From Desulforegulaceae bacterium (GTDB lineage Bacteria; Desulfobacterota; Desulfobacteria; Desulfobacterales; JACKCP01): a DNA stretch of 64,000 bases. Below are positions 33,871 to 48,450 of the stretch, piece by piece. The position numbers and the translations under genes are program-made. Within the stretch, counting starts at the first letter, position 1, and every line of letters begins with the position of its first letter. The notes beneath the pieces are model-generated. The model made no database searches and was not told the DNA's origin. It saw nothing but the letters and a program-made list of their open reading frames with translations. Location of the stretch: assembly GCA_034006035.1 (NCBI GenBank), contig JAVETN010000001.1, positions 62,001 to 126,000 of the forward strand, written 5' to 3'.

Positions 33871-34842
33871 ATGAACAAATCAGAACGGATATTTAGGTTT
33901 CACAGGCTTGTTAAATCAGGCAGACGACCTTCCTTAAAAAAAATTGCTTATGAACTTGAATGTTCTGAGTCTACAGTTAACAGAATCAAGCAAACCCTTA
34001 TTTATTATTTTTCAGCACCTTTAAAATATGATCCATCGGCAAATGGATATTATTATGATGAGTCTGTTGAAAAATTTGATCTTCCCGGATTTTGGCTGAG
34101 TCCTGATGAAATTTATGCATTGTTTGTTTGTGTTCAGGTTATTGAAAAGAATCAGGAAGTTGGAATTTCATCAATTATAAATCCTTTGAGTTCAAAGATT
34201 GAAGAAATAATCAAGGGGCTTGGCCATTCACCCCAGGATTTGAAATCCTTGATCAAAGTCATGCCTTTGTATTCAAGAGTTTTAAGGAAAAAAGATTTTT
34301 CAAAAGTTTGTTCATCACTTGTCAACCGTGAAATAATAGAAGTTCAATACTACAAAAGAACTTGCGGCAGCAAAAGCCTTAGAAAACTCCACCCCCAGCG
34401 AATATTACATTATAAAGACAATTGGTATCTTTGTGCTTATTGTGAAAAACACAAAGAATTCAGGGTTTTTTCTGTTGAAAATATAAAAATTATAAATATT
34501 GAACCAGGTGCAAAAATTTTTTCCAAAGAAAAAATAGATTTATTTATGGAAGACGGGTTTGGGGTTTTTTCAGGAAAAGCAGAGCATACTGCAAAATTAA
34601 GGTTTTTTGAGCCGAATTTAAACTGGGTCAAAGACGAAATCTGGCATAAAAATCAAAACCAATATTATGATGGAAAAGATCTTATTTTAGAAATTCCTTT
34701 TAGCAATCCAACCGAGCTTGTGATGGAGGTTTTACGCCATGGCGAAGGCGTTGTTGTTGAGTCTCCAAAGTTTTTAAAAGACCTTGTAGTTGAAAAACTT
34801 AAAAAAAATTTAAAAAAATATTTGGGGTCTGTCAGTCTGTGA
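33871..34842 (+). CDS. WYL-domain transcriptional regulator of the CRISPR-Cas locus
   Basis: 323 residues. The N-terminus is a winged helix-turn-helix: RPSLKKIAYELECSESTVNRIKQ (about 20-42). The middle and C-terminal parts match WYL regulators: LHPQRILHYKDNWYLCAYCEKHKEFRVF contains the W-Y-L triplet and conserved R, and the WCX-type tail has EVLRHGEGVVVESP. WYL proteins often control CRISPR and other defence genes in response to a ligand, possibly nucleic acid. Its stop codon overlaps the GTG of cas1, so it is co-transcribed, which fits self-regulation. Confidence 0.88.
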   Translation: MNKSERIFRFHRLVKSGRRPSLKKIAYELECSESTVNRIKQTLIYYFSAPLKYDPSANGYYYDESVEKFDLPGFWLSPDEIYALFVCVQVIEKNQEVGISSIINPLSSKIEEIIKGLGHSPQDLKSLIKVMPLYSRVLRKKDFSKVCSSLVNREIIEVQYYKRTCGSKSLRKLHPQRILHYKDNWYLCAYCEKHKEFRVFSVENIKIINIEPGAKIFSKEKIDLFMEDGFGVFSGKAEHTAKLRFFEPNLNWVKDEIWHKNQNQYYDGKDLILEIPFSNPTELVMEVLRHGEGVVVESPKFLKDLVVEKLKKNLKKYLGSVSL

Positions 34843-34871
34843 CAGAGCTTGTGTGGTATGGTTGGTTAAAA
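34825..34871 (+). promoter_or_regulatory. Hairpin element across the WYL/cas1 junction, copy 1
   Basis: TCTGTCA and TGACAGA form a perfect seven-pair stem around the cas1 GTG start, followed by CTTGTGTGGTATGG. 32 of 38 bases match a second copy at 52602-52639 without gaps. The stem covers the cas1 start codon, so it could control translation of cas1 or bind the WYL protein as an operator. Confidence 0.5.
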
Positions 34872-35903
34872 ACAAAACCCAGGAGGCTTAAAATTCAGCT
34901 TATTATTAATTCACCAGGGACGATTATTAAGCAGAAAGATGAGTGCTTTAGAATACAGAATGAAACAGACAGAATGGACATTGCCGCACCAAGGGTTGAG
35001 TCCATAATTTTGTCAAATAAAGTTATGATAACAACTCAGTCCATTGTCCTGGCTTTAGAAAATAATATTGATGTGATTTTTCTTGATAATTACGGTGATC
35101 CGCTTGGCAGAGTCTGGTTTTCTAAAATGGGTTCAACTGCTTTAATTAGAAGAAAACAGCTTGAAGCTACTGAAAATGAAAAAGGGATTAATATTGTTTT
35201 AGAGCTTATTCAGAAAAAATTAGAAAATCAAATTGAGTTTTTGAAAAAGCTTAAATATTCAAGGCCGGGTAAAGAAAGTGTTTTTAATACTCCTATAAGA
35301 ACAATAAGTAACTCTTTGGATTTTTTGGTTTCAATAAAGAGCAATATTAGCGAAGCAAGGAGCCAGATTTTAGGAATAGAAGGCACAGCTGGTAGAGCTT
35401 ATTTTCAAACTGTTTCAAAAATAATGCCTGAAAAGTATAGGTTTAGCGGAAGATCCAGAAGGCCTGCAAAAGACCCTTTTAATGCAGTTTTAAATTATTG
35501 TTATGGAGTCTTATATTCTATGGTTGAGAAAGCATGTATAATCGCTGGTCTTGACCCGTTTGTGGGTTTTATGCACACTGATAATTATAATAAGAAGTCA
35601 CTTGTTTTTGATTTTATAGAACCTTTTAGAATCTATGCTGAAACTGTATCTGTTTATCTTTTTACAGGGAAAAAAGTAAAAGAGAGTTATTTTGATGTCT
35701 CCTCAAAAAGTACAAGCCTTAATCAACAAGGAAAGCCTTTTGTCATAGATAGTCTTCTCAAGCATCTGGATGAAAAAATTCGTTATAAAAAAAGAAATGT
35801 AAAAAGAAAATATATTATAAACCATGAGGCACACAGACTTGCAAACTTTCTTTTAAATGACGAAAAAGAAATAACTAAATGGCTTAATATAAAAGAATTT
35901 TAA
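34839..35903 (+). CDS. cas1: CRISPR integrase Cas1
   Basis: Metal-dependent integrase that, with Cas2, inserts new spacers. The 354 residues include the N-terminal beta domain and the catalytic helical domain. Metal ligands can be placed at E181 (ILGIEGTAGRAYF), H246 (FMHTD) and D258/E261 (LVFDFIEPFR), so it should be active. The GTG start overlaps the WYL stop and lies in a hairpin. Here it opens the cas gene set with cas2, while cas4, its usual neighbour in type I-B, is seven genes away. Confidence 0.95.
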   Translation: MTELVWYGWLKTKPRRLKIQLIINSPGTIIKQKDECFRIQNETDRMDIAAPRVESIILSNKVMITTQSIVLALENNIDVIFLDNYGDPLGRVWFSKMGSTALIRRKQLEATENEKGINIVLELIQKKLENQIEFLKKLKYSRPGKESVFNTPIRTISNSLDFLVSIKSNISEARSQILGIEGTAGRAYFQTVSKIMPEKYRFSGRSRRPAKDPFNAVLNYCYGVLYSMVEKACIIAGLDPFVGFMHTDNYNKKSLVFDFIEPFRIYAETVSVYLFTGKKVKESYFDVSSKSTSLNQQGKPFVIDSLLKHLDEKIRYKKRNVKRKYIINHEAHRLANFLLNDEKEITKWLNIKEF

Positions 35904-35914
35904 GGATAAATATT

Positions 35915-36214
35915 ATGCTCAGAACTCTTGTGTGGATAATATATGATATTACAGATGATAAAATAAGAGGAAAGATTGCAAAGGAATGTAAAAAATCCGG
36001 TCTTACTCGGGTTCAAAAAAGTGTTTTTCTTGGCAGGATTGACTGGAACAGATTTGACGAGCTTGCTGAAAGATTTGATGAATTAATCATTAAAAAAACA
36101 GACAGTGTTTATATTTTTCCATTTTGTCAGGAAGATTTTAAGAAAATCAGAGTGCTTGGCCAGGGTTTTGATAAAAAATATGTAAATGATGAAATTCTTG
36201 CAAAGTTTTTTTGA
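35915..36214 (+). CDS. cas2: CRISPR-associated Cas2
   Basis: 99-residue ferredoxin-fold protein that bridges two Cas1 dimers during spacer integration. The first strand RTLVWIIYDITDDKIRGKI carries the conserved Asp after the hydrophobic strand, SVFLGRIDWNRF is the second core part, and VYIFPFC the third. It is 11 bases downstream of cas1. Confidence 0.93.
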   Translation: MLRTLVWIIYDITDDKIRGKIAKECKKSGLTRVQKSVFLGRIDWNRFDELAERFDELIIKKTDSVYIFPFCQEDFKKIRVLGQGFDKKYVNDEILAKFF

Positions 36215-36232: not shown

Positions 36233-36895
36233 ATGAAAAAGGCAACTCTTACATTAAATGATATTAATTTAAAACCAAATGAGATTCATAAATTCAGAGG
36301 TTATGTGGGCAGGCTTTTTGAAAAATATGATCTGGTTCATAATCACAATACTCATGATGGTAAAAATATTTACAGATATCCGTTAATACAATTTAAAATA
36401 ATTAATAACAAGCCAGCCATTATAGCTTTAAGCGAAAAAGCGGTTGAAGTATTTACAGATATTTTTATGAATCTTGAAGAAATAAAAATTGAAGATACTA
36501 TAATCCCTGTATTTGAAAAAGACTTAAAAGTTGAAGAAACTGGTTTTGGTTATTCTCAGGAACATTTTTTATATAAGTTTAAAACCCCGTGGATTGCATT
36601 GAATCAGAAAAATTATAAGAAATACAGAGGTTCTCGTATGTCTGAAAAAAAAGAATTATTAAAACAAATTCTTACAGGAAATGTTTTATCTATGTGCAAA
36701 TATCTTGGAATTATTTTGAATGAAAACGAGAGAATTAATTCATTGGTAGATGTTGAGCCGATTGATACAAATTTGAAAGGTAACAAGGTGTTGGGTTTTA
36801 AAGGGGTTTTTAAGATAAATTTTGAAATTCCTGATTTTGTGGGAATTGGTAAATCTGTTTCAAGAGGTTTTGGAATGGTGGAAAAAATTTTGTAA
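36233..36895 (+). CDS. cas6: CRISPR pre-crRNA endonuclease Cas6 (Cas6b-like)
   Basis: Cuts the array transcript within each repeat. The 220 residues fit the Cas6b family: NLKPNEIHKFRGYVGRLF near the N-terminus, a histidine-rich HNHNTHDGKNIYRYP that probably supplies catalytic His, LIQFKIINNKPAIIAL, and the C-terminal glycine-rich loop GIGKSVSRGFGMVEKI. The repeat in this array has almost no hairpin, matching Cas6b enzymes that bind unstructured repeats. The expected crRNA 5' tag is AUUGAAAC. Confidence 0.88.
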   Translation: MKKATLTLNDINLKPNEIHKFRGYVGRLFEKYDLVHNHNTHDGKNIYRYPLIQFKIINNKPAIIALSEKAVEVFTDIFMNLEEIKIEDTIIPVFEKDLKVEETGFGYSQEHFLYKFKTPWIALNQKNYKKYRGSRMSEKKELLKQILTGNVLSMCKYLGIILNENERINSLVDVEPIDTNLKGNKVLGFKGVFKINFEIPDFVGIGKSVSRGFGMVEKIL

Positions 36896-36918: not shown

Positions 36919-38718
36919 ATGATACATAAAATGTATAAGCTCCATGAGTATATAGATGATGAATTTTTTGAAGAAAATCCATACGGTCTCGTTATAGATG
37001 AAAGGGAAGAAGAAGTAATTATTTTAGAATTTAAATCAGGGGAAAATGAAAACTCATTTGATTATAAAGGAATTTATTTAGAAAAATTTAATGTTGAAAA
37101 AAACAAGCAAAAAATTTTTTTTAAAAAAGTTGCGGCAAGAGGGACTTCTGAATTTCCATCAGTGTTTGTCACATTTAAAGATATAAATGAAAATGAAGAC
37201 TATTTTTCAGAGAAAAAGAAAAAAGGAAAAATAATAACCATTCTTCAAAAATATAATGAAGATGAAAAAATTTCTTCCTTGTATGATTCTTTTTTACAGA
37301 ATTCTGAACAGATTAAAGAGTCAATTAAAGAATCCATGCAGGGGCGTAAATCTGATAAGGATCTTTATATTTTGAGTCTTAAAATTGATAATAAATATAT
37401 AGGTGACTCAGATATTTTTAAAGATATTAGACAAAAAACAAAGGAAAATTTATTAGCACCTTATTTCACGCTTGATAATAAAGTTTTTAAAGAAGTAAAT
37501 AAATTTTGTTCTGTATGTTTGAGTGAGAATAAAGAAGTGTGGGGGTATGTAAGTACATTCAATTTTTATACTGCCAAAACTGAGTTTGCTCCCATTGCAG
37601 GAGGGCTGGATAAAACAAAAGCATGGAAAAATTATCCTGTATGTCCCGAATGTGCAGTTAAATTAAAAGATGTTAAGCCAATAATAGAAGATTACATGAA
37701 TTACTATTTTTGTGGATTTAGCTATTATTTAATTCCAGAATTTTTAATTTCCCACCCTGATAATGCTGAGATTATGGATTTCTTTCTAGATAAGGAAACT
37801 GCTTTGGGAAAATTCAGCATGTCAGAACAAACAAGAAATTCGATAACTAATTCAAAGACTGATATTTTAGATATTATAAAAGATACAGATAATCGAGTTA
37901 ATTACTCAATGCTGTTTTATAAGAAAAACAATAATGAATTTAAAATTTTAATGAATATTGAGGATGTTTATCCTTCTCAGTTTAAGCAAATTTTTGATGC
38001 TAAGAATAAAGCAGAGGAAAATCATATTTTTAAAAATTTAAAAAGCTCAAAAAATGTTTATGATTTAAAGTTTAAATTTGAGTTTATTAAAGATTTTATG
38101 GGCGAGTTGGAAAAAAGTTTTTTAGAGGTAGTAAGGTCTGTTTTTTTACAAAAAAAAATTGATTACTCTTTTCTTATGATAAAAATTGTTGACTCTATCA
38201 GGACAAAGTTTGCAAACAATGAAAATATAAGTCTTTCTGTTTTGAAAAGTTTTATGACTTTAAAATTTTTGAATAATTTAAACATAATAAATCTGTCTTT
38301 AAATAAAAAGGAGGATAAATTGGAATCAGAATATAATGATTTTTTTAATGAACACAAAGATTTCTTTAATAATCCGGCTAAAAAAGCTGTTTTTCTTGAA
38401 GGTGTTTTATGTCAAAAATTATTGAATATTCAGTATAGTAAAAGAGAAGCATCTCCATTTAGAAATAAATTGAATGGTCTGAAATTAAGTCCCAAATTAA
38501 TAAAAAAATTATTCCCCGAGATTATTTCAAAATTAGAACAATATGACTCAAATTATTATAAAAAACTGGAAGAAACCATTTCAAAATTATTTCTGGAATC
38601 CAATTTTGATGACATGTCAAATGATGAAATCAGTTTTTATTTTGCCGTAGGAATGACCCTTCATAAAGAAATAATAAATAATCAATCTGATAAAAATAAC
38701 AATTCAAAAACAGAGTAG
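36919..38718 (+). CDS. cas8b: Cas8b-type large subunit of Cascade (TM1802/Csh1 family)
   Basis: 599 residues, type I-B large subunit expected to recognise the PAM. It has a four-cysteine zinc site C197-x2-C200 and C242-x2-C245 (FCSVC and CPEC), as in the TM1802 family, followed by a large, lysine- and asparagine-rich helical region. Sequence similarity within Cas8 is weak, so the assignment relies on the zinc motif, length and position between cas6 and cas7. An integral small subunit (Cas11b) from an internal start may lie in its 3' part but I cannot place one. Confidence 0.83.
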   Translation: MIHKMYKLHEYIDDEFFEENPYGLVIDEREEEVIILEFKSGENENSFDYKGIYLEKFNVEKNKQKIFFKKVAARGTSEFPSVFVTFKDINENEDYFSEKKKKGKIITILQKYNEDEKISSLYDSFLQNSEQIKESIKESMQGRKSDKDLYILSLKIDNKYIGDSDIFKDIRQKTKENLLAPYFTLDNKVFKEVNKFCSVCLSENKEVWGYVSTFNFYTAKTEFAPIAGGLDKTKAWKNYPVCPECAVKLKDVKPIIEDYMNYYFCGFSYYLIPEFLISHPDNAEIMDFFLDKETALGKFSMSEQTRNSITNSKTDILDIIKDTDNRVNYSMLFYKKNNNEFKILMNIEDVYPSQFKQIFDAKNKAEENHIFKNLKSSKNVYDLKFKFEFIKDFMGELEKSFLEVVRSVFLQKKIDYSFLMIKIVDSIRTKFANNENISLSVLKSFMTLKFLNNLNIINLSLNKKEDKLESEYNDFFNEHKDFFNNPAKKAVFLEGVLCQKLLNIQYSKREASPFRNKLNGLKLSPKLIKKLFPEIISKLEQYDSNYYKKLEETISKLFLESNFDDMSNDEISFYFAVGMTLHKEIINNQSDKNNNSKTE

Positions 38719-38738: not shown

Positions 38739-39644
38739 ATGACTATTAAAAACCGCAGAGAACTTCTTTTTATTTATGATGTAAAAAATGCAAATCCAAA
38801 TGGAGACCCTGCCGATGAAAATAAACCAAGAATTGATGAAGAAACCGGCTTAAATATTGTTACTGATGTAAGACTTAAAAGGACTGTAAGAGATCAGTTT
38901 TTTAATTTTATGGGTTATAACGGTAAAGAGGATAAAGATATTTTTGTCAGAACAACAGATTCTGAAAAAGGCGGTATAAAAGACGGAAAAGCAAGAGCTA
39001 GAGATTTTGGCTCTTTAAAAAAAGATATGATGGAAGATATACTAAAAAAATGTATAGATATCAGGCTTTTTGGCGGTGTCATTCCAATGGATAAAGATTC
39101 TATAATTTTTACGGGGCCAGTTCAGTTTAAAATGGGAAAATCTCTTCATAAAGTACAGGTTAAATATATAAAAGGAACTGGTGCTTTTGCAGGGAAAGAA
39201 GGTGCTAATCAGCAGACTTTCAGAGAAGAATATATTTTGCCGTATTCGCTCATTTGTTTTCACGGAATAATAAACGAAAATGCCGCTAAAGAAACCAGGC
39301 TTACAGATGAAGATATTGAAGAATTGAAAAAAGCAATGTGGGAAGGGACTAAAAACCTTATTTCCCGTTCAAAATTTGAACATAGTCCTCAAATGCTTAT
39401 CGAAGTAAAATATAAGGAAGAAAACTTTTTTATTGGCGAACTTGATAAATATATATCCTTTGATTCAGACCTCCCAGACGAAAAAATAAGGGATATTTCT
39501 GATGGTATTTTAAATCTTAATGAGCTTAAAAAGATTGTTGAGTTTAATAAGGATAAAATTGAATCTGTTGAATTAAAACAAAACAACAGGGTTAAATTTG
39601 AAGGGTTTGAACTTTCAGAAGGGCTGAATTACAGAAAGGTCTGA
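38739..39644 (+). CDS. cas7: Cascade backbone protein Cas7 (Csh2)
   Basis: RAMP-family protein that binds the crRNA spacer in six or so copies. The 301 residues begin RRELLFIYDVKNANPNGDPADENKPRID and later give VTDVRLKRTVRDQF, both diagnostic of Csh2-type Cas7 in subtype I-B, and DIRLFGGVIP. An AAGGAG site precedes the ATG. It lies between cas8b and cas5. Confidence 0.95.
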   Translation: MTIKNRRELLFIYDVKNANPNGDPADENKPRIDEETGLNIVTDVRLKRTVRDQFFNFMGYNGKEDKDIFVRTTDSEKGGIKDGKARARDFGSLKKDMMEDILKKCIDIRLFGGVIPMDKDSIIFTGPVQFKMGKSLHKVQVKYIKGTGAFAGKEGANQQTFREEYILPYSLICFHGIINENAAKETRLTDEDIEELKKAMWEGTKNLISRSKFEHSPQMLIEVKYKEENFFIGELDKYISFDSDLPDEKIRDISDGILNLNELKKIVEFNKDKIESVELKQNNRVKFEGFELSEGLNYRKV

Positions 39645-39649
39645 TAAAT

Positions 39650-40360
39650 ATGACTTTTATACCGGAAAAAATATTAGTATTTGATATTTTTGGTGATTAT
39701 GCTCAGTTCAGAAAATTTTTTACCAATATGTCGCCTTTAACTTTTTCCATACCTCCAAGAACTGTTCTTGCAGGTATTATGGGGGCTATTGCAGGTATTA
39801 AAAAAGAAGAAAACCCAGAGTCTTTTTTAAAAGCAAATTCTTTTATATCTTTAAAAATTAACAATCCTGTAAAAAAGGTAAAAATACCTTTGAATTATAT
39901 AAAAACGGAGAGCAGAACCAAAATATACAGATATGAGGCTCATAAACCTACAAACGTTGAATTTTTAAAAGATCCGTCCTTCAGGGTTTATTTCTCGCAC
40001 AAAGATTTTGAACTGTATTCAAAAATTAAAGAAAATTTAAAATTCCATAAGTCTGTTTATACTTTAAATCTTGGAATAAGCTGTTGTATTTGTGATTTTA
40101 AGTTTCTTGGTGAATTTAACCTTGAAGAAAAACAAGGCAAAGCTTCTATGTCTTCAGTAGTTCCTAAATCTAAAATTAAGACCATTGAATTTGGTGATTC
40201 ATTGATACAGCAGTGTACTCTTCCAAATATTTATCTAAACAGCCGTGAAGTTCAGGAATATAAGGAATTTTTGTATGAAATTAAGGGCGGTCTGATTAAA
40301 GGAGAGATGGAACATTATTATAAAATAGATGAAATGGAGGAAAATATAATTGAAATGTAA
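39650..40360 (+). CDS. cas5: Cascade protein Cas5 (Cas5h-like)
   Basis: RAMP protein that caps the 5' crRNA tag. It has the N-terminal strand KILVFDIFGDYAQFRKFF, then the Cas5 signature SPLTFSIPPRTVLAGIMGAI and a mid-domain HKSVYTLNLGIS. 236 residues, normal for Cas5b/h. Five bases after cas7; its end overlaps cas3 by 11 bases. Confidence 0.93.
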   Translation: MTFIPEKILVFDIFGDYAQFRKFFTNMSPLTFSIPPRTVLAGIMGAIAGIKKEENPESFLKANSFISLKINNPVKKVKIPLNYIKTESRTKIYRYEAHKPTNVEFLKDPSFRVYFSHKDFELYSKIKENLKFHKSVYTLNLGISCCICDFKFLGEFNLEEKQGKASMSSVVPKSKIKTIEFGDSLIQQCTLPNIYLNSREVQEYKEFLYEIKGGLIKGEMEHYYKIDEMEENIIEM

Positions 40361-42686
40361 GCTGATGTCTCATCCTGGGAAACTATTAAAAACACATCTT
40401 GAAGGTACGCTGCAAAATGGAATGGATATTTTTAAAAGAAACGGGATTTATAAAAAACATGAAAATTTTATTAATCCTGTTTTACTGCTCCATGATCTGG
40501 GTAAGGCATCTTCATATTTTCAGGATTACATCAGCGGTAGTAAACAAGTAAAAGATACTTTAAAGCGGCACGCTGAAATATCTGCATTATGGTTTTACTT
40601 TTATTCAAAAGAAATTTTAAATTTAAGTGAAAAATTTTGTGTATTTGGATACATTTTGATTAAGTATCATCATGCTGATTTTATAAATTTTGATAAGATG
40701 TGTGCCGCTTCATTAAATAAAGAAGAAATTTTTCAAATCAATAATGAAATTGATTATGATGAATTGAAATTTATTTATAAAGATAAGCTTGATTCAGAAT
40801 TTTTTAATAAAAAAAACTTTGAAAACAAATATGAAAATTACACAAATAGTGGCGGAATTAAAAGGGTTTTTAAAATAAGAAAAACTCTTGAAATAAAAGA
40901 TTATTTGCTTTTAAATTATTTTTTTTCAATTTTACTTACAGCAGATAAAAGTGATGCAATTTTAAATGACAGAATTATTCCTGTAACTCCAAAATGGCCT
41001 GAAAATGCTGTAGATGAGTATAAGAAACAATTTTTAGAAGATGATAATATTCTTACCATTGTAAGAAATAAAGCTTATTTGGAAGCTGAGTCCAATTTAA
41101 ATACGAATTCAAGATTTTTTTCCCTTAATCTTCCAACCGGTGCAGGAAAAACACTTAATGTTTTAAATACAGCTTTGAAATTAAAGAAAAATAAAAATTT
41201 AAATAAAATAATTTATTGTCTTCCATTTACATCGGTAATAGACCAGAATGCAAAAGTTTTTGAAGATGTTTTAAATTATAACAATATCCAACCTTCATCT
41301 GATTTAATCCTCAAGCACCATCATTTAACAGAACTTAGTTATATCAGGCAATTTGAGGACGAAAATAAAATTTATTCTTCAAAAGATTCTGAGTTTTATA
41401 TTGAAGGCTGGGAAAGTGAACTGGTTGTTACAACTTTTTTTCAGTTACTTCATACTTTTTTTTCTAATAAAAATAAGTCCCTAAGAAAATTTCACAATTT
41501 ATCTAACTCTATTGTTATTTTAGATGAAGTTCAGTCTATCCCTTTAAAATATTGGGAGCTTATTAACCTGATTTTTAAATATTGTGCAGAAGAGTTTAAT
41601 ATTTATTTTATTTTGGTTACGGCAACAATGCCTTTGATATTTTCCGAAGAAAAAAAGGAAATTGAAGAACTGGCCAAATCTAAAAAGAGCTATTTTGATT
41701 CTATGAGCAGAATAAAACTTAATACTGATAATCTTAAAGAAAAAATTCATATAAATGACTTTAAAAAAACTGTGCTGCATGATGTTCAGCAAAATCCAGA
41801 CATAAGCAGACTTTTTATAATGAATACCGTGAAATCATCCCTTGATTTATTCAATTATTTAAAAGAGCATATTCCTGAAGACAATCTGGTTTATCTTTCA
41901 TCAAATATAATTCCAAAGGAAAGAATAAATAAAATTTCAGATATCAAAAAGAATCCGCAAAGCAGGATAATTGTATCAACCCAGCTTGTTGAAGCAGGTG
42001 TTGATATTGATATTGATGTTGTTTACAGAGATATAGCTCCTTTGGATTCAATTTTTCAGGCTTGCGGAAGATGCAATAGGAATAATAAATCGTCTGATCT
42101 TTCAGAAGTAAAGTTGTTTTTGATAACAGATGATAAAAAACTTTATTCATCATATATTTATGATCAAGTTTTTATAGACAGTACTTTGGAAGTTTTAAAA
42201 TCAAAAAAAGAGTTTCATGAAAAAGAATTTCTTAATTTATCGGAGTTGTATTTTCAAAAAATTAAAGAACGTTATGAAGTTTCAGATTCAAAGAATATTT
42301 TAAAAAATATTGAGTCTTTATTTTATTTTAATGCTTTTAATAAATCGGCAAAGCCTGAGCATAAAATTTTCGAGCTTATTGAGCCGTTTTCAACAGTTTC
42401 GGCTTTTATAGAAATTGATGATGAAGCTTCAAATATATATTGTTCGTATCAGGAATTGCTATTGTCTGAAATTGAAGACCCTTTTGAAAAAAGACTTTTG
42501 TTTAAGGATGCATACAAAAAAATGTCACCTTATATAATAAATATACCTGAGCCAAGGGCAAAAAACTGCGGATATGATGAAACTTTGGGTAAAATATGGT
42601 TTATAACAAGACCTATGGTTGAAGAACTTTATAATACTGAAACAGGCTTTAATAGAGACAGAGAAGTTGTTGATTTTATTTTTTAA
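40350..42686 (+). CDS. cas3: CRISPR nuclease-helicase Cas3
   Basis: Degrades target DNA recruited by Cascade. The N-terminal HD nuclease has H7 (MSHPGK), H48-D49 (LLHDLGKAS), H74 and HH at 107-108. The superfamily 2 helicase shows Walker A NLPTGAGKTLN (260-270), DEVQ (392-395), TATMPL, and motif VI QACGRCNRNN. All key residues are intact. 778 residues. TTG start with GGAGGAAA upstream, overlapping cas5. Fused HD and helicase is the normal form in subtype I-B. Confidence 0.95.
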   Translation: MKCKLMSHPGKLLKTHLEGTLQNGMDIFKRNGIYKKHENFINPVLLLHDLGKASSYFQDYISGSKQVKDTLKRHAEISALWFYFYSKEILNLSEKFCVFGYILIKYHHADFINFDKMCAASLNKEEIFQINNEIDYDELKFIYKDKLDSEFFNKKNFENKYENYTNSGGIKRVFKIRKTLEIKDYLLLNYFFSILLTADKSDAILNDRIIPVTPKWPENAVDEYKKQFLEDDNILTIVRNKAYLEAESNLNTNSRFFSLNLPTGAGKTLNVLNTALKLKKNKNLNKIIYCLPFTSVIDQNAKVFEDVLNYNNIQPSSDLILKHHHLTELSYIRQFEDENKIYSSKDSEFYIEGWESELVVTTFFQLLHTFFSNKNKSLRKFHNLSNSIVILDEVQSIPLKYWELINLIFKYCAEEFNIYFILVTATMPLIFSEEKKEIEELAKSKKSYFDSMSRIKLNTDNLKEKIHINDFKKTVLHDVQQNPDISRLFIMNTVKSSLDLFNYLKEHIPEDNLVYLSSNIIPKERINKISDIKKNPQSRIIVSTQLVEAGVDIDIDVVYRDIAPLDSIFQACGRCNRNNKSSDLSEVKLFLITDDKKLYSSYIYDQVFIDSTLEVLKSKKEFHEKEFLNLSELYFQKIKERYEVSDSKNILKNIESLFYFNAFNKSAKPEHKIFELIEPFSTVSAFIEIDDEASNIYCSYQELLLSEIEDPFEKRLLFKDAYKKMSPYIINIPEPRAKNCGYDETLGKIWFITRPMVEELYNTETGFNRDREVVDFIF

Positions 42687-42700
42687 TATTTAGGTTTCTT

Positions 42701-43297
42701 ATGGTAAATAGTGGTTTTTCTATAACAGCAAGCCTTATGCTTGAATTTTTGTATTGTCCAAGGTTTACATATTTTGAGTATGTTCTTGGAATTCCTCAAA
42801 ATGAGGGGAAAAGATTTAAGGTAGAAAAGGGTAGGAACGTTCATGAAAAAGTTAGGACTGTAAATCCTGATTATTTGAGAAAAAAAATTGGGGTTAAATC
42901 CAAAGAAGCTGATGTTTATTTATCTTCAAAGTCAGGGATTCGGGGTATTGTTGATGAAATATTGTTTCTTGAAGATGGAACTGCCGCACCTTTAGATTAT
43001 AAATATGCAAAATACGAAGAGAAAATATTTAACACTTACAAATTTCAGCTTGTTTTTTATGCAAAACTTATTGAGGAAAATTATAATATTAATGTTAAAA
43101 AAGGTTTTTTGATTTATTCAAGAAGCCAGAATAAGCTTGTTGAAGTTGAAATTGGTAAGAAGGATTATTCTGAATTAAACAATCTTTTACAGGATATAAA
43201 TTCAGTTATTTCGGACTGCAAATATCCTGAAGCTACAAAAGTTGTCAGAAGATGTCCTGACTGCTGCTACAGAAATATTTGTGAAAAACAGATTTAA
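42701..43297 (+). CDS. cas4: CRISPR-associated exonuclease Cas4
   Basis: RecB-type nuclease with an Fe-S cluster that trims prespacers and selects the PAM during adaptation. 198 residues. Cluster cysteines are in LEFLYCPRFTYFEY and the C-terminal CPDCCYRNIC. The nuclease core has GIVDEILFLEDG (Asp), APLDYKYAK (D-x-K) and FQLVFYAKLIE (QxxxY). It is the last cas gene, 152 bases before the array. In most I-B loci it stands just before cas1-cas2. Confidence 0.94.
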   Translation: MVNSGFSITASLMLEFLYCPRFTYFEYVLGIPQNEGKRFKVEKGRNVHEKVRTVNPDYLRKKIGVKSKEADVYLSSKSGIRGIVDEILFLEDGTAAPLDYKYAKYEEKIFNTYKFQLVFYAKLIEENYNINVKKGFLIYSRSQNKLVEVEIGKKDYSELNNLLQDINSVISDCKYPEATKVVRRCPDCCYRNICEKQI

Positions 43298-43449
43298 GTG
43301 AAATTCTTATGTATAATCGGTGTGTTATTTTACTATGGTTAAGAATGTTGAGATAAAAACATTGAAATTTTTTTCATATTTAGTTAAATTTCGGTCTTTG
43401 ACAATTTTATTTTACTTATTGATTTTATTTTGAATTTTTATAATTTGCT
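43298..43449 (+). promoter_or_regulatory. CRISPR leader
   Basis: 152 very AT-rich bases between cas4 and the first repeat. It contains TTGACA at 43398-43403 and TATAAT at 43439-43444, too far apart to be one promoter; TATAAT lies six bases from the first repeat and would start transcription inside it. Orientation is set by the repeat end GGATTGAAAC, which gives the standard crRNA tag on the forward strand, and by the adjoining cas genes. Confidence 0.8.
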
Positions 43450-46400
43450 CTTTTAGAATTACTTCCAAGACAACAAGGATTGAAACGAAGAGGCAGAAGA
43501 AAGGTTTGAAAGATTGAGTATTCCTTTTAGAATTACTTCCAAGACAACAAGGATTGAAACATAATCCGCTTCAGCTGCTCCCACATTAGCTCTAGCTTTT
43601 AGAATTACTTCCAAGACAACAAGGATTGAAACTTTCCTCTGACGCTCCAAGCTCTTCCAGTGTTTCAGCTTTTAGAATTACTTCCAAGACAACAAGGATT
43701 GAAACTTTGCTGTAAAGTACTATTTAAAGATTTTCCTTGTCTTTTAGAATTACTTCCAAGACAACAAGGATTGAAACAAAATCAGCCTTATGATTATTGC
43801 CCTCAAGAAGTTTCTTTTAGAATTACTTCCAAGACAACAAGGATTGAAACGAATTTGAAATATTGGGTGATGTTTCTAGCATTGACTTTTAGAATTACTT
43901 CCAAGACAACAAGGATTGAAACTTTCTTATTGGCTCTCTCCTAACACCCATAAATTTTCTTTTAGAATTACTTCCAAGACAACAAGGATTGAAACGACTT
44001 GGTTGAGTGTGCTTAATGAATGCTATTCCACTTTTAGAATTACTTCCAAGACAACAAGGATTGAAACCAATCTCTTGAAAAAGCTATCAAAGAAAATACA
44101 ACTTTTAGAATTACTTCCAAGACAACAAGGATTGAAACAAGATTTTCCTTGTGTATTAAAACTTTCAGAACCTCTTTTAGAATTACTTCCAAGACAACAA
44201 GGATTGAAACATAAATAGGTATAAAGTACTGATATTATAATAAAACTTTTAGAATTACTTCCAAGACAACAAGGATTGAAACTGCACTGATCTTTGAGTA
44301 GGACAGTGTAACAGCACACTTTTAGAATTACTTCCAAGACAACAAGGATTGAAACAGAGGTGTTGCAAAATATTCACCCTCGGCCATATCTTCTTTTAGA
44401 ATTACTTCCAAGACAACAAGGATTGAAACCTTAAGCTTGCAACGGCAGACAAGCAGGGCTCTAAATCTTTTAGAATTACTTCCAAGACAACAAGGATTGA
44501 AACTTTTTTCGTTTTTAGTTTTGGTTCTTACATACTCTTTTAGAATTACTTCCAAGACAACAAGGATTGAAACCCTGAAGATGCTCAGAATAAATACTTT
44601 TCTGAGCCTTTTAGAATTACTTCCAAGACAACAAGGATTGAAACACCAGGTGCCTGCTTTTGTGGCTGAAAACTGGATTCTTTTAGAATTACTTCCAAGA
44701 CAACAAGGATTGAAACATTGGTGCACCTATGGCAGCACCAAGAGCCAGAGTCTTTTAGAATTACTTCCAAGACAACAAGGATTGAAACAAAGACCGGTTA
44801 CCCTGCCGACAAATCCGGCCTCACCACTTTTAGAATTACTTCCAAGACAACAAGGATTGAAACAGCAGGGCTGGGTTGATATTAAGGACCGGGTAAAAAC
44901 TTTTAGAATTACTTCCAAGACAACAAGGATTGAAACTCCGCTTGAAATCCTGTGATTTACATCTTCAATAAACTTTTAGAATTACTTCCAAGACAACAAG
45001 GATTGAAACTTGGTCATAATGTTGCTGACAGGCAGCTTATAGAACTTTTAGAATTACTTCCAAGACAACAAGGATTGAAACGGTATCAGTATCGGTGCTT
45101 CCATGTCTTCTGGTGTCTTTTAGAATTACTTCCAAGACAACAAGGATTGAAACATATCTGGCTGAACGGGCTTGCATCGAGGGAGATTATTCTTTTAGAA
45201 TTACTTCCAAGACAACAAGGATTGAAACTCCGGACGGAATTGCAACGGGGCATGACTTAATCTTTTAGAATTACTTCCAAGACAACAAGGATTGAAACAA
45301 CGTCAGGTGTGCAGCAGCTTCCCCTTTGGTCATCTTTTAGAATTACTTCCAAGACAACAAGGATTGAAACAGCCAAATGACTGGACTTCAAGTCCTGCTC
45401 CTGCACCTTTTAGAATTACTTCCAAGACAACAAGGATTGAAACGCTGCTGCAAATAAACGTTACCATGGACTCTATATCGCTTTTAGAATTACTTCCAAG
45501 ACAACAAGGATTGAAACTTGTTCGTGGCTTGACTGGCGAAGAGTTTGCAAGGCTTTTAGAATTACTTCCAAGACAACAAGGATTGAAACCTTGGTGAATG
45601 GAGAGATGAAAAATCAGGGAAGGAACTTTTAGAATTACTTCCAAGACAACAAGGATTGAAACCTGCAAAAGAAGCTGCACAAGGCCTTGAATTTTCTTTT
45701 AGAATTACTTCCAAGACAACAAGGATTGAAACAAATCAGGAAACACTCATGAAGGGTAGCCCGGCACTTTTAGAATTACTTCCAAGACAACAAGGATTGA
45801 AACACCCTCAGAATGTTATTAATAATCTGCAATCAGAACTTTTAGAATTACTTCCAAGACAACAAGGATTGAAACAAAACAATAGGAGCTTACATGAATA
45901 AAAAAACTGCTTTTAGAATTACTTCCAAGACAACAAGGATTGAAACGACTCTGCGTCTTCTTCTTCCTGTATCCCCCAGTCTTCTTTTAGAATTACTTCC
46001 AAGACAACAAGGATTGAAACAGTTCTGCTCGGACTTCTTCTTTTGCTTCAAATCTCTTTTAGAATTACTTCCAAGACAACAAGGATTGAAACCTTAAGCT
46101 TGCAACGGCAGACAAGCAGGGCTCTAAATCTTTTAGAATTACTTCCAAGACAACAAGGATTGAAACATATAGAAAGCATCTGAGTCCTCCTCTAATCCGA
46201 ACACTTTTAGAATTACTTCCAAGACAACAAGGATTGAAACTGTGTTTCATTGTCTTCATATTCCTTATTCTGAAGCTTTTAGAATTACTTCCAAGACAAC
46301 AAGGATTGAAACAATATTCTGGGAAGGGAAAAAAATAATGGAAAATTCTTTTAGAATTACTTCCAAGACAACAAGGATTGAAACATAAGTATTATTGCAG

Positions 46401-48418
46401 GGGGGCTTCTTGTTCGTCCGCTTTCAGAATTACTTCCAAGACAACAAGGATTGAAACATTGCTCTTGGTGCTGCCGGGCTTGCATATTCAACTTTCAGAA
46501 TTACTTCCAAGACAACAAGGATTGAAACCTGAAATAATAGGCGAACTTGAAACAGGATTGAATACTTTCAGAATTACTTCCAAGACAACAAGGATTGAAA
46601 CAAAACTGGGTAATGAGCGAGATTGCAGGTTTTGTTCTTTTAGAATTACTTCCAAGACAACAAGGATTGAAACCTTGAACTTCAAAAGTACAACTTTCAC
46701 GAATATCTTCTTTTAGAATTACTTCCAAGACAACAAGGATTGAAACATATCTACCATTCCACAAAACAAACCACTTGGGTCCTCTTTTAGAATTACTTCC
46801 AAGACAACAAGGATTGAAACCTGGGAAGAACACGATCTGCAAAAGAAGAAGACTCTTTTAGAATTACTTCCAAGACAACAAGGATTGAAACTTAAGTTTT
46901 TGTCCTGTATCTGAAAAACCCTTATTAACTTTTAGAATTACTTCCAAGACAACAAGGATTGAAACAATAATTTTGTCTAATAAAAATAAATTCTTCTTTT
47001 GCTTTTAGAATTACTTCCAAGACAACAAGGATTGAAACCATTGCCCATGAAGGCCTTGAACTATTACTCTGTCTTTTAGAATTACTTCCAAGACAACAAG
47101 GATTGAAACAATTCTTTATTGCCAGAAAGTTAAAAATTAATAAACTTTTAGAATTACTTCCAAGACAACAAGGATTGAAACTAAAACTTTCCGTCAATAG
47201 TCTTTATTTGGTCCTCTGCTTTTAGAATTACTTCCAAGACAACAAGGATTGAAACAATCGCTCCTGCGGCATTCTAGGCGCTATGGCGAGCTTTTAGAAT
47301 TACTTCCAAGACAACAAGGATTGAAACAAGCTGAACGCATTGCTTGATATGCAGGCGGACATCTTTTAGAATTACTTCCAAGACAACAAGGATTGAAACA
47401 GGGGAGCACCTCGGGGGCGAGCCGGTGAACCCCTTCTTTTAGAATTACTTCCAAGACAACAAGGATTGAAACAGAATTCTTTCTTTTCCTAAATATTTTT
47501 TTCTTTTTCTTTTAGAATTACTTCCAAGACAACAAGGATTGAAACTATAATTGAAGAATGCCATAAATATTTTGATTCTACTTTCAGAATTACTTCCAAG
47601 ACAACAAGGATTGAAACAAAGACCATAGAACTTGTACTTGCGGAAAATTTCATCTTTCAGAATTACTTCCAAGACAACAAGGATTGAAACGTCTTTTTGT
47701 GGTGGTGAAAAAATGATTCCAGTAACTTTCAGAATTACTTCCAAGACAACAAGGATTGAAACGCCTCTGAAGCAGGGTTAACAAATAAACCATTAAACTT
47801 TCAGAATTACTTCCAAGACAACAAGGATTGAAACAGCCATGCAGAATTGTTCTGTGTGGCTTTTTTTGTCTTTCAGAATTACTTCCAAGACAACAAGGAT
47901 TGAAACACCGCAAGAACATCTGCCAGAGCTAAATTATAAACCTCTTTCAGAATTACTTCCAAGACAACAAGGATTGAAACAATCTGTCCAGCATGCCTTT
48001 TCGTTCAAGCTGTTTTGCTTTCAGAATTACTTCCAAGACAACAAGGATTGAAACCAAACAGTAATACAAGTCTGGAACAGCTTGGAGCTGCTTTCAGAAT
48101 TACTTCCAAGACAACAAGGATTGAAACTAGACAGTTCTCATCATGGAATTTCTGAAAATGGCACTTTCAGAATTACTTCCAAGACAACAAGGATTGAAAC
48201 GATATTTTCTTGCGGGGAATGATACATGGAAAAAACTTTCAGAATTACTTCCAAGACAACAAGGATTGAAACTTCTCTGGCCGACTATGGCAGATAACAT
48301 GACGGTTTCTTTCAGAATTACTTCCAAGACAACAAGGATTGAAACGGCTTTCCAACTTCCATGGTTCGTGCAGGAAGAAAACTTTCAGAATTACTTCCAA
48401 GACAACAAGGATTGAAAC
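43450..48418 (+). CRISPR. CRISPR array, 69 repeats of 37 bp, 68 spacers, type I-B
   Basis: The repeat starts CTTTTAGAATTACTTCC and ends AAGGATTGAAAC. I counted 69 copies at an average period of 72.5 bases; spacers are 33-38 bases. All repeats are identical except position 5: T in repeats 1-41 and 45-57, C in repeats 42-44 (46421, 46492, 46565) and 58-69 (from 47581). Spacer 14 (44430-44466) equals spacer 37 (46093-46129). Spacer 4 ends and spacer 10 begins with the same 14 bases. The repeat has little self-pairing. Transcription is expected left to right from the leader. Spacer targets cannot be identified from the window. Confidence 0.98.
47835..47869 (+). terminator. Spacer 61 reads as an intrinsic terminator
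   Basis: AGCCATGCAGAA and TTCTGTGTGGCT pair over 12 positions (two are G-U), with a three-base loop TTG, then TTTTTTGT. The direction is that of the expected pre-crRNA, so it could stop array transcription before the last eight repeats. Confidence 0.6.
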
Positions 48419-48450
48419 AGCATTTGGACTCAAAGAGCAGACCAAATGCT
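48419..48450. other. Hairpin directly after the last repeat
   Basis: AGCATTTGG (48419-48427) and CCAAATGCT (48442-48450) are a perfect nine-pair inverted repeat with a 14-base loop starting at the first base past the array. No T-run follows. It may mark the array end or be part of an old, decayed spacer. Confidence 0.6.

Follow-up and report, generated by a model that had tools for sequence, protein, structure and literature searches.

Overlapping spacers in a type I-B CRISPR array of a Desulforegulaceae bacterium point to a TTA or TTN PAM

A complete type I-B CRISPR-Cas locus

The window analysed here is a stretch of 64,000 nucleotides from a Desulforegulaceae bacterium (contig JAVETN010000001.1, positions 62,001 to 126,000). 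It carries a CRISPR array and, upstream of it, a complete operon in the order WYL regulator, cas1, cas2, cas6b, cas8b, cas7, cas5b, cas3, cas4 (Table 1). The CRISPR-Cas system is a complete, ordinary type I-B. The large subunit gene cas8b belongs to the Csh1/TM1802 family according to TIGR02556 and TIGR02591, and it is accompanied by cas7 (Csh2), cas5b, and a cas3 with HD and helicase domains. PADLOC identified cas6b together with the adaptation genes cas1, cas2, and cas4, and an array with ATTGAAAC-ending repeats adjoins the operon. Since Cas8b scores above the profile cut-offs of both TIGR02556 (TM1802, 156.95 bits) and TIGR02591 (Csh1, 104.05 bits), it was assigned to the Cas8b1 type, as in Thermotoga maritima. 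A pattern search for Cas8b relatives in GTDB contigs found none. In related systems, Cas4 aids the selection of PAM-flanked prespacers.

Table 1. Genes and features of the CRISPR-Cas locus, in coordinates of the window
Feature	Coordinates	Strand	Evidence or content
WYL-domain regulator, first in cas operon	33871..34842	+	PADLOC WYL, 96.9 bits
cas1 (Cas1b-like), GTG start	34839..35903	+	PADLOC Cas1b, E 2.7e-126; TIGR00287
cas2	35915..36214	+	TIGR01573; PADLOC Cas2b
cas6 (Cas6b)	36233..36895	+	PADLOC Cas6, E 2.4e-75
cas8b (TM1802/Csh1 family)	36919..38718	+	TIGR02556, 207.7 bits; TIGR02591, 169.2 bits
cas7 (Csh2)	38739..39644	+	TIGR02590, E 4e-94
cas5b	39650..40360	+	TIGR02592, E 1.4e-32
cas3 (HD + helicase)	40350..42686	+	PADLOC Cas3b, E 6e-210; TIGR01587 and TIGR01596
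cas4 (Cas4b)	42701..43297	+	PADLOC Cas4b, E 4.7e-82; TIGR00372
Likely leader	43298..43449	+	152 bp, 80% A+T, from cas4 to repeat 1
CRISPR array	43450..48418	+	69 repeats of 37 bp (CTTTTAGAATTACTTCCAAGACAACAAGGATTGAAAC), 68 spacers
Spacer 2	43561..43595	+	Encodes LELMWEQLKRI on the reverse complement; conserved motif of phage DNA methyltransferases
Spacer 4	43706..43740	+	TTTGCTGTAAAGTACTATTTAAAGATTTTCCTTGT; last 14 bases at 43727-43740
Spacer 10	44139..44173	+	AAGATTTTCCTTGTGTATTAAAACTTTCAGAACCT; first 14 bases at 44139-44152

Anatomy of the array

Parsing the array from the sequence gave spacers of 33-38 bp, 67 of the 68 being distinct. The repeats end in AAC at the 3' side and contain the usual ATTGAAAC 5' handle of the crRNA. 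The stretch between cas4 and the first repeat is likely the leader. A one-base repeat variant, CTTTC in place of CTTTT, is found in repeats 42-44 and 58-69 (46421-46601 and 47581-48418). Because most of the variant copies are found toward the distal end, new spacers are taken to enter at the left. A single switch of repeat type did not produce the array, since the common CTTTT form sits between the two CTTTC blocks; recombination inside the array is a possible source of the split.

Several further features of the array were recorded. Spacers 14 (44430-44466) and 37 (46093-46129) are identical over 37 bp and have different neighbouring spacers; they reflect either two captures of the same protospacer or the duplication of a unit inside the array. 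Across all spacers (43487-48381), T is enriched at spacer position 6 (34/67, 20.6 expected), and the largest positional deviation was reached by 8 of 300 permutations. Position 6 is among the unpaired bases in type I Cascade. At the first spacer position, A is enriched (32 of 67). Directly 3' of the last repeat, a perfect 9-bp inverted repeat (AGCATTTGG...CCAAATGCT, 48419-48450) may form a terminator-like hairpin that closes the array.

Spacers 4 and 10 overlap end to end

The last 14 bases of spacer 4 and the first 14 bases of spacer 10 are the same sequence, AAGATTTTCCTTGT, in the same orientation and without a mismatch. Merging the two spacers yields 56 bases, TTTGCTGTAAAGTACTATTTAAAGATTTTCCTTGTGTATTAAAACTTTCAGAACCT. 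The bases preceding protospacer 10 can then be read within spacer 4 as TACTATTTA, ending in TTA at 43724-43726. Re-parsing the array reproduced exactly the coordinates, the 14-base match, and the 56-base merge given in the preliminary description, which had also read the TTA triplet correctly.

This dovetail is the longest in the array, the runner-up being 8 bases (spacers 26 and 22). We simulated arrays of 67 distinct spacers with a first-order Markov model and counted both strands. Dovetails of at least 14 bases were seen in 0 of 1500 simulated arrays, and the longest, 13 bases, was seen once. Analytically, 4e-5 same-strand dovetails of at least 14 bases are expected. The preliminary description had argued from the length of the match that chance was unlikely, and these figures support it in substance. 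Length on its own is weaker evidence, because spacers 18 and 42 have a longer internal match of 15 bp on opposite strands, and internal matches of 15 bases arise in 2 of 400 simulations. The significance of the match between spacers 4 and 10 lies in its placement, since it extends exactly to the end of each spacer that faces the other. The overlap is real and non-random.

Spacers 18 (44717-44751) and 42 (46458-46491) share their 15 bases in the same reading frame (ALGAA), and they probably derive from homologous coding targets in related viruses.

Search for the target DNA

A single target spanning both spacers, as anticipated in the preliminary description, was sought with the merged 56 bases in phages, plasmids, IMG/VR, GTDB contigs, and the genome of the bacterium itself; no sequence with both protospacers, or with one of the two, turned up. 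The merged 56-mer is absent from its own genome, where all spacers matched only the array itself and no convincing self-target was seen outside it. In IMG/VR, the merged sequence was not found by an exact 33-mer, nor by a codon-degenerate pattern across the junction of spacers 4 and 10, nor when every third base of the pattern was set to N so as to allow third-position changes in both open frames. The junction patterns likewise had no match in GTDB contigs. When all spacers were compared with phages and plasmids by blastn (the plasmid query omitted three AT-rich spacers), spacer 2 alone matched, in methyltransferase genes. Genomes from the same order, class, and phylum (about 390 sampled per level) gave no convincing protospacer when the best two first-look candidates per genome were scored, the phylum and class searches being run with subsets of the spacers. 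A weak match in these samples (G750; 80%) had E 7e-4 for the single genome, which becomes about 0.3 across 395 genomes, and was discarded as no better than chance. Neither a chimeric query built from spacer peptides nor wobble patterns for spacers 20 and 14 gave a match. The collections searched yielded no target, so the one shared target is something that we infer, with statistical support, from the overlap.

The merged 56-mer showed some similarity to Nostoc phages. It aligned with an intergenic region of Nostoc phage YongM (84% with gaps, E 9e-3) and, over 26 bases, with intergenic DNA of two related Nostoc phages (E 0.1); the best E value of the reversed control was about 1 among the matches listed. 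In a motif scan each phage had a single strong copy, and the same scan in IMG/VR found nothing. We treat this similarity as a lead only.

The sequence flanking the protospacers

The preliminary description had proposed a TTA PAM that fits the T-rich PAMs of type I-B systems. This proposal is plausible and is the best supported one, drawing on the flank inside spacer 4, on sites homologous to spacer 2, and on the literature on Cas8b1 systems; the direct reading comes from a single internal flank, which does not tell TTA apart from TTN or YYD. TTA or TTN is thus our best estimate of the PAM, not a proof of it. A random flank drawn from the base composition of the spacers would be TTA in about 3% and TTN in about 9% of cases. 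Within the spacers, TTA is mildly under-represented (34 observed, 48 expected, z -2.0), and other triplets are more so.

The sites homologous to spacer 2 have comparable flanks. An Aeromonas phage site is identical at 32 of 35 positions and has TTA at its 5' flank, a Vibrio phage site has TTG, and the sites on seven IMG/VR contigs have TTA, TTT, TTA, TTT, TTG, TTA, and TTT. With 3 to 7 differences from the spacer, these sites are homologues, not the true target. Their TTN flank is forced by the protein, because the next residues, Ile-Lys, are conserved. The flanks at these homologues lend weak, independent support to a TTN-type PAM and do not establish one.

TTA is an expected PAM for such a system, in agreement with the flank read inside spacer 4, because Cas8b1 relatives with AAC-ending repeats use TTA (Parageobacillus thermoglucosidasius), YYD (T. 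maritima; PMC13199841), or TTN/TNA (Hungateiclostridium thermocellum, as cited in PMC13199841). TTA is the preferred motif of P. thermoglucosidasius for interference as well as among newly acquired spacers (PMC10551041). According to the authors of PMC13199841, all characterised Cas8b systems have a pyrimidine at -2, and the I-B PAMs of a large spacer-mapping study include TTA and TTN (PMC8482600).

Proposed origin of the overlapping pair

We consider it probable that spacers 4 and 10 stem from two captures, separate in time, of protospacers that overlap on the same strand of one invader or of two near-identical ones, and that the PAM is TTA or TTN. The protospacers would start 21 bp apart and have 14 bp in common. 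Spacer 10 is likely the older, because the leader is at the left and spacer 10 lies farther from it. Spacer 4 would be the later capture, from the DNA immediately upstream of protospacer 10, on its PAM side, which is why the triplet 5' of protospacer 10 can be read within spacer 4. Cas1, Cas2, and Cas4 would most likely pick prespacers beside TTA or, more loosely, TTN, and a Cascade of the Cas8b1 type would recognise the same motif. Two captures so close together would be unusual under random sampling of a whole virus genome, which suggests a hot spot or priming, and spacer 10 may have primed the acquisition of spacer 4. Primed adaptation has been shown for the type I-B system of P. thermoglucosidasius (PMC10551041). 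A more specific version is fairly doubtful: the older spacer 10 would have guided Cascade to its target, spacer 4 would then have been cut from the adjoining PAM-side DNA of that strand, and the pair would preserve a record of re-acquisition, primed or driven by interference, at a single hot spot, perhaps in a non-coding element of a phage. The non-coding target is suggested by the weak resemblance of the 56-mer to an intergenic stretch beside thymidylate kinase in Nostoc phages.

Other readings of the overlap were weighed against this one. A chance match is very improbable: the AT content of the spacers is high and some other pairs that look unrelated have 12-13 internal bases in common, but the simulated arrays never produced a 14-base dovetail and the real array's next longest falls far below it. 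It is also unlikely, though less so, that the two spacers came from different, related invaders with a conserved stretch, so that the flank in spacer 4 would belong to another molecule than the source of spacer 10. That related targets do occur in this array is suggested by the opposite-strand match of spacers 18 and 42, in the same frame with differing surroundings. The match between spacers 4 and 10, however, reaches the facing ends exactly, as one continuous target would, and no mismatch marks two alleles; if the invaders were near-identical, TTA would probably be common to both anyway.

The alternative that we take most seriously, at somewhat below even chances, accepts the shared target and assigns the system a wider or another PAM, of the YYD or TTN/TNA kind, with TTA as one accepted or slipped site. 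The consensuses of T. maritima and, as cited, of H. thermocellum agree with it, both being Cas8b1 systems with AAC repeats, and so do TTT and TTG among the flanks of the spacer-2 homologues. Nothing decisive stands against it. TTA fits every such consensus, so a broader PAM would refine the proposed TTA reading and would not contradict it.

An array alone can suffice to estimate a PAM when no virus has been sequenced, since each of two overlapping spacers can expose the flank of the other. The present pair provides a testable PAM (TTA/TTN) for an uncultured lineage, which helps to assign viruses to their host.

Comparison with known type I-B systems

The locus is a standard type I-B one whose array contains overlapping spacers; the proposed PAM is already known from relatives, and knowledge of type I-B systems is unchanged. 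The type I-B system of P. thermoglucosidasius NCIMB 11955 (PMC10551041; PMC13199841) is alike in gene content, Cas8b1-type large subunit, and AAC repeat end, and it uses TTA, the PAM proposed here. Its PAM was measured by interference assays and from new spacers, whereas the one proposed here was derived from one spacer overlap. The type I-B1 system of T. maritima MSB8 (PMC13199841) shares the Cas8b family (TIGR02556, named after TM1802) and the AAC repeat end, and its YYD consensus includes TTA; its broad PAM was established biochemically, in contrast to the sequence-derived motif proposed here. Hungateiclostridium (Clostridium) thermocellum DSM 1313, as cited in PMC13199841, likewise has a type I-B system with Cas8b1 and an AAC repeat end. 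Its PAM was mapped experimentally and, as TTN/TNA, includes TTA and is broader than TTA alone.
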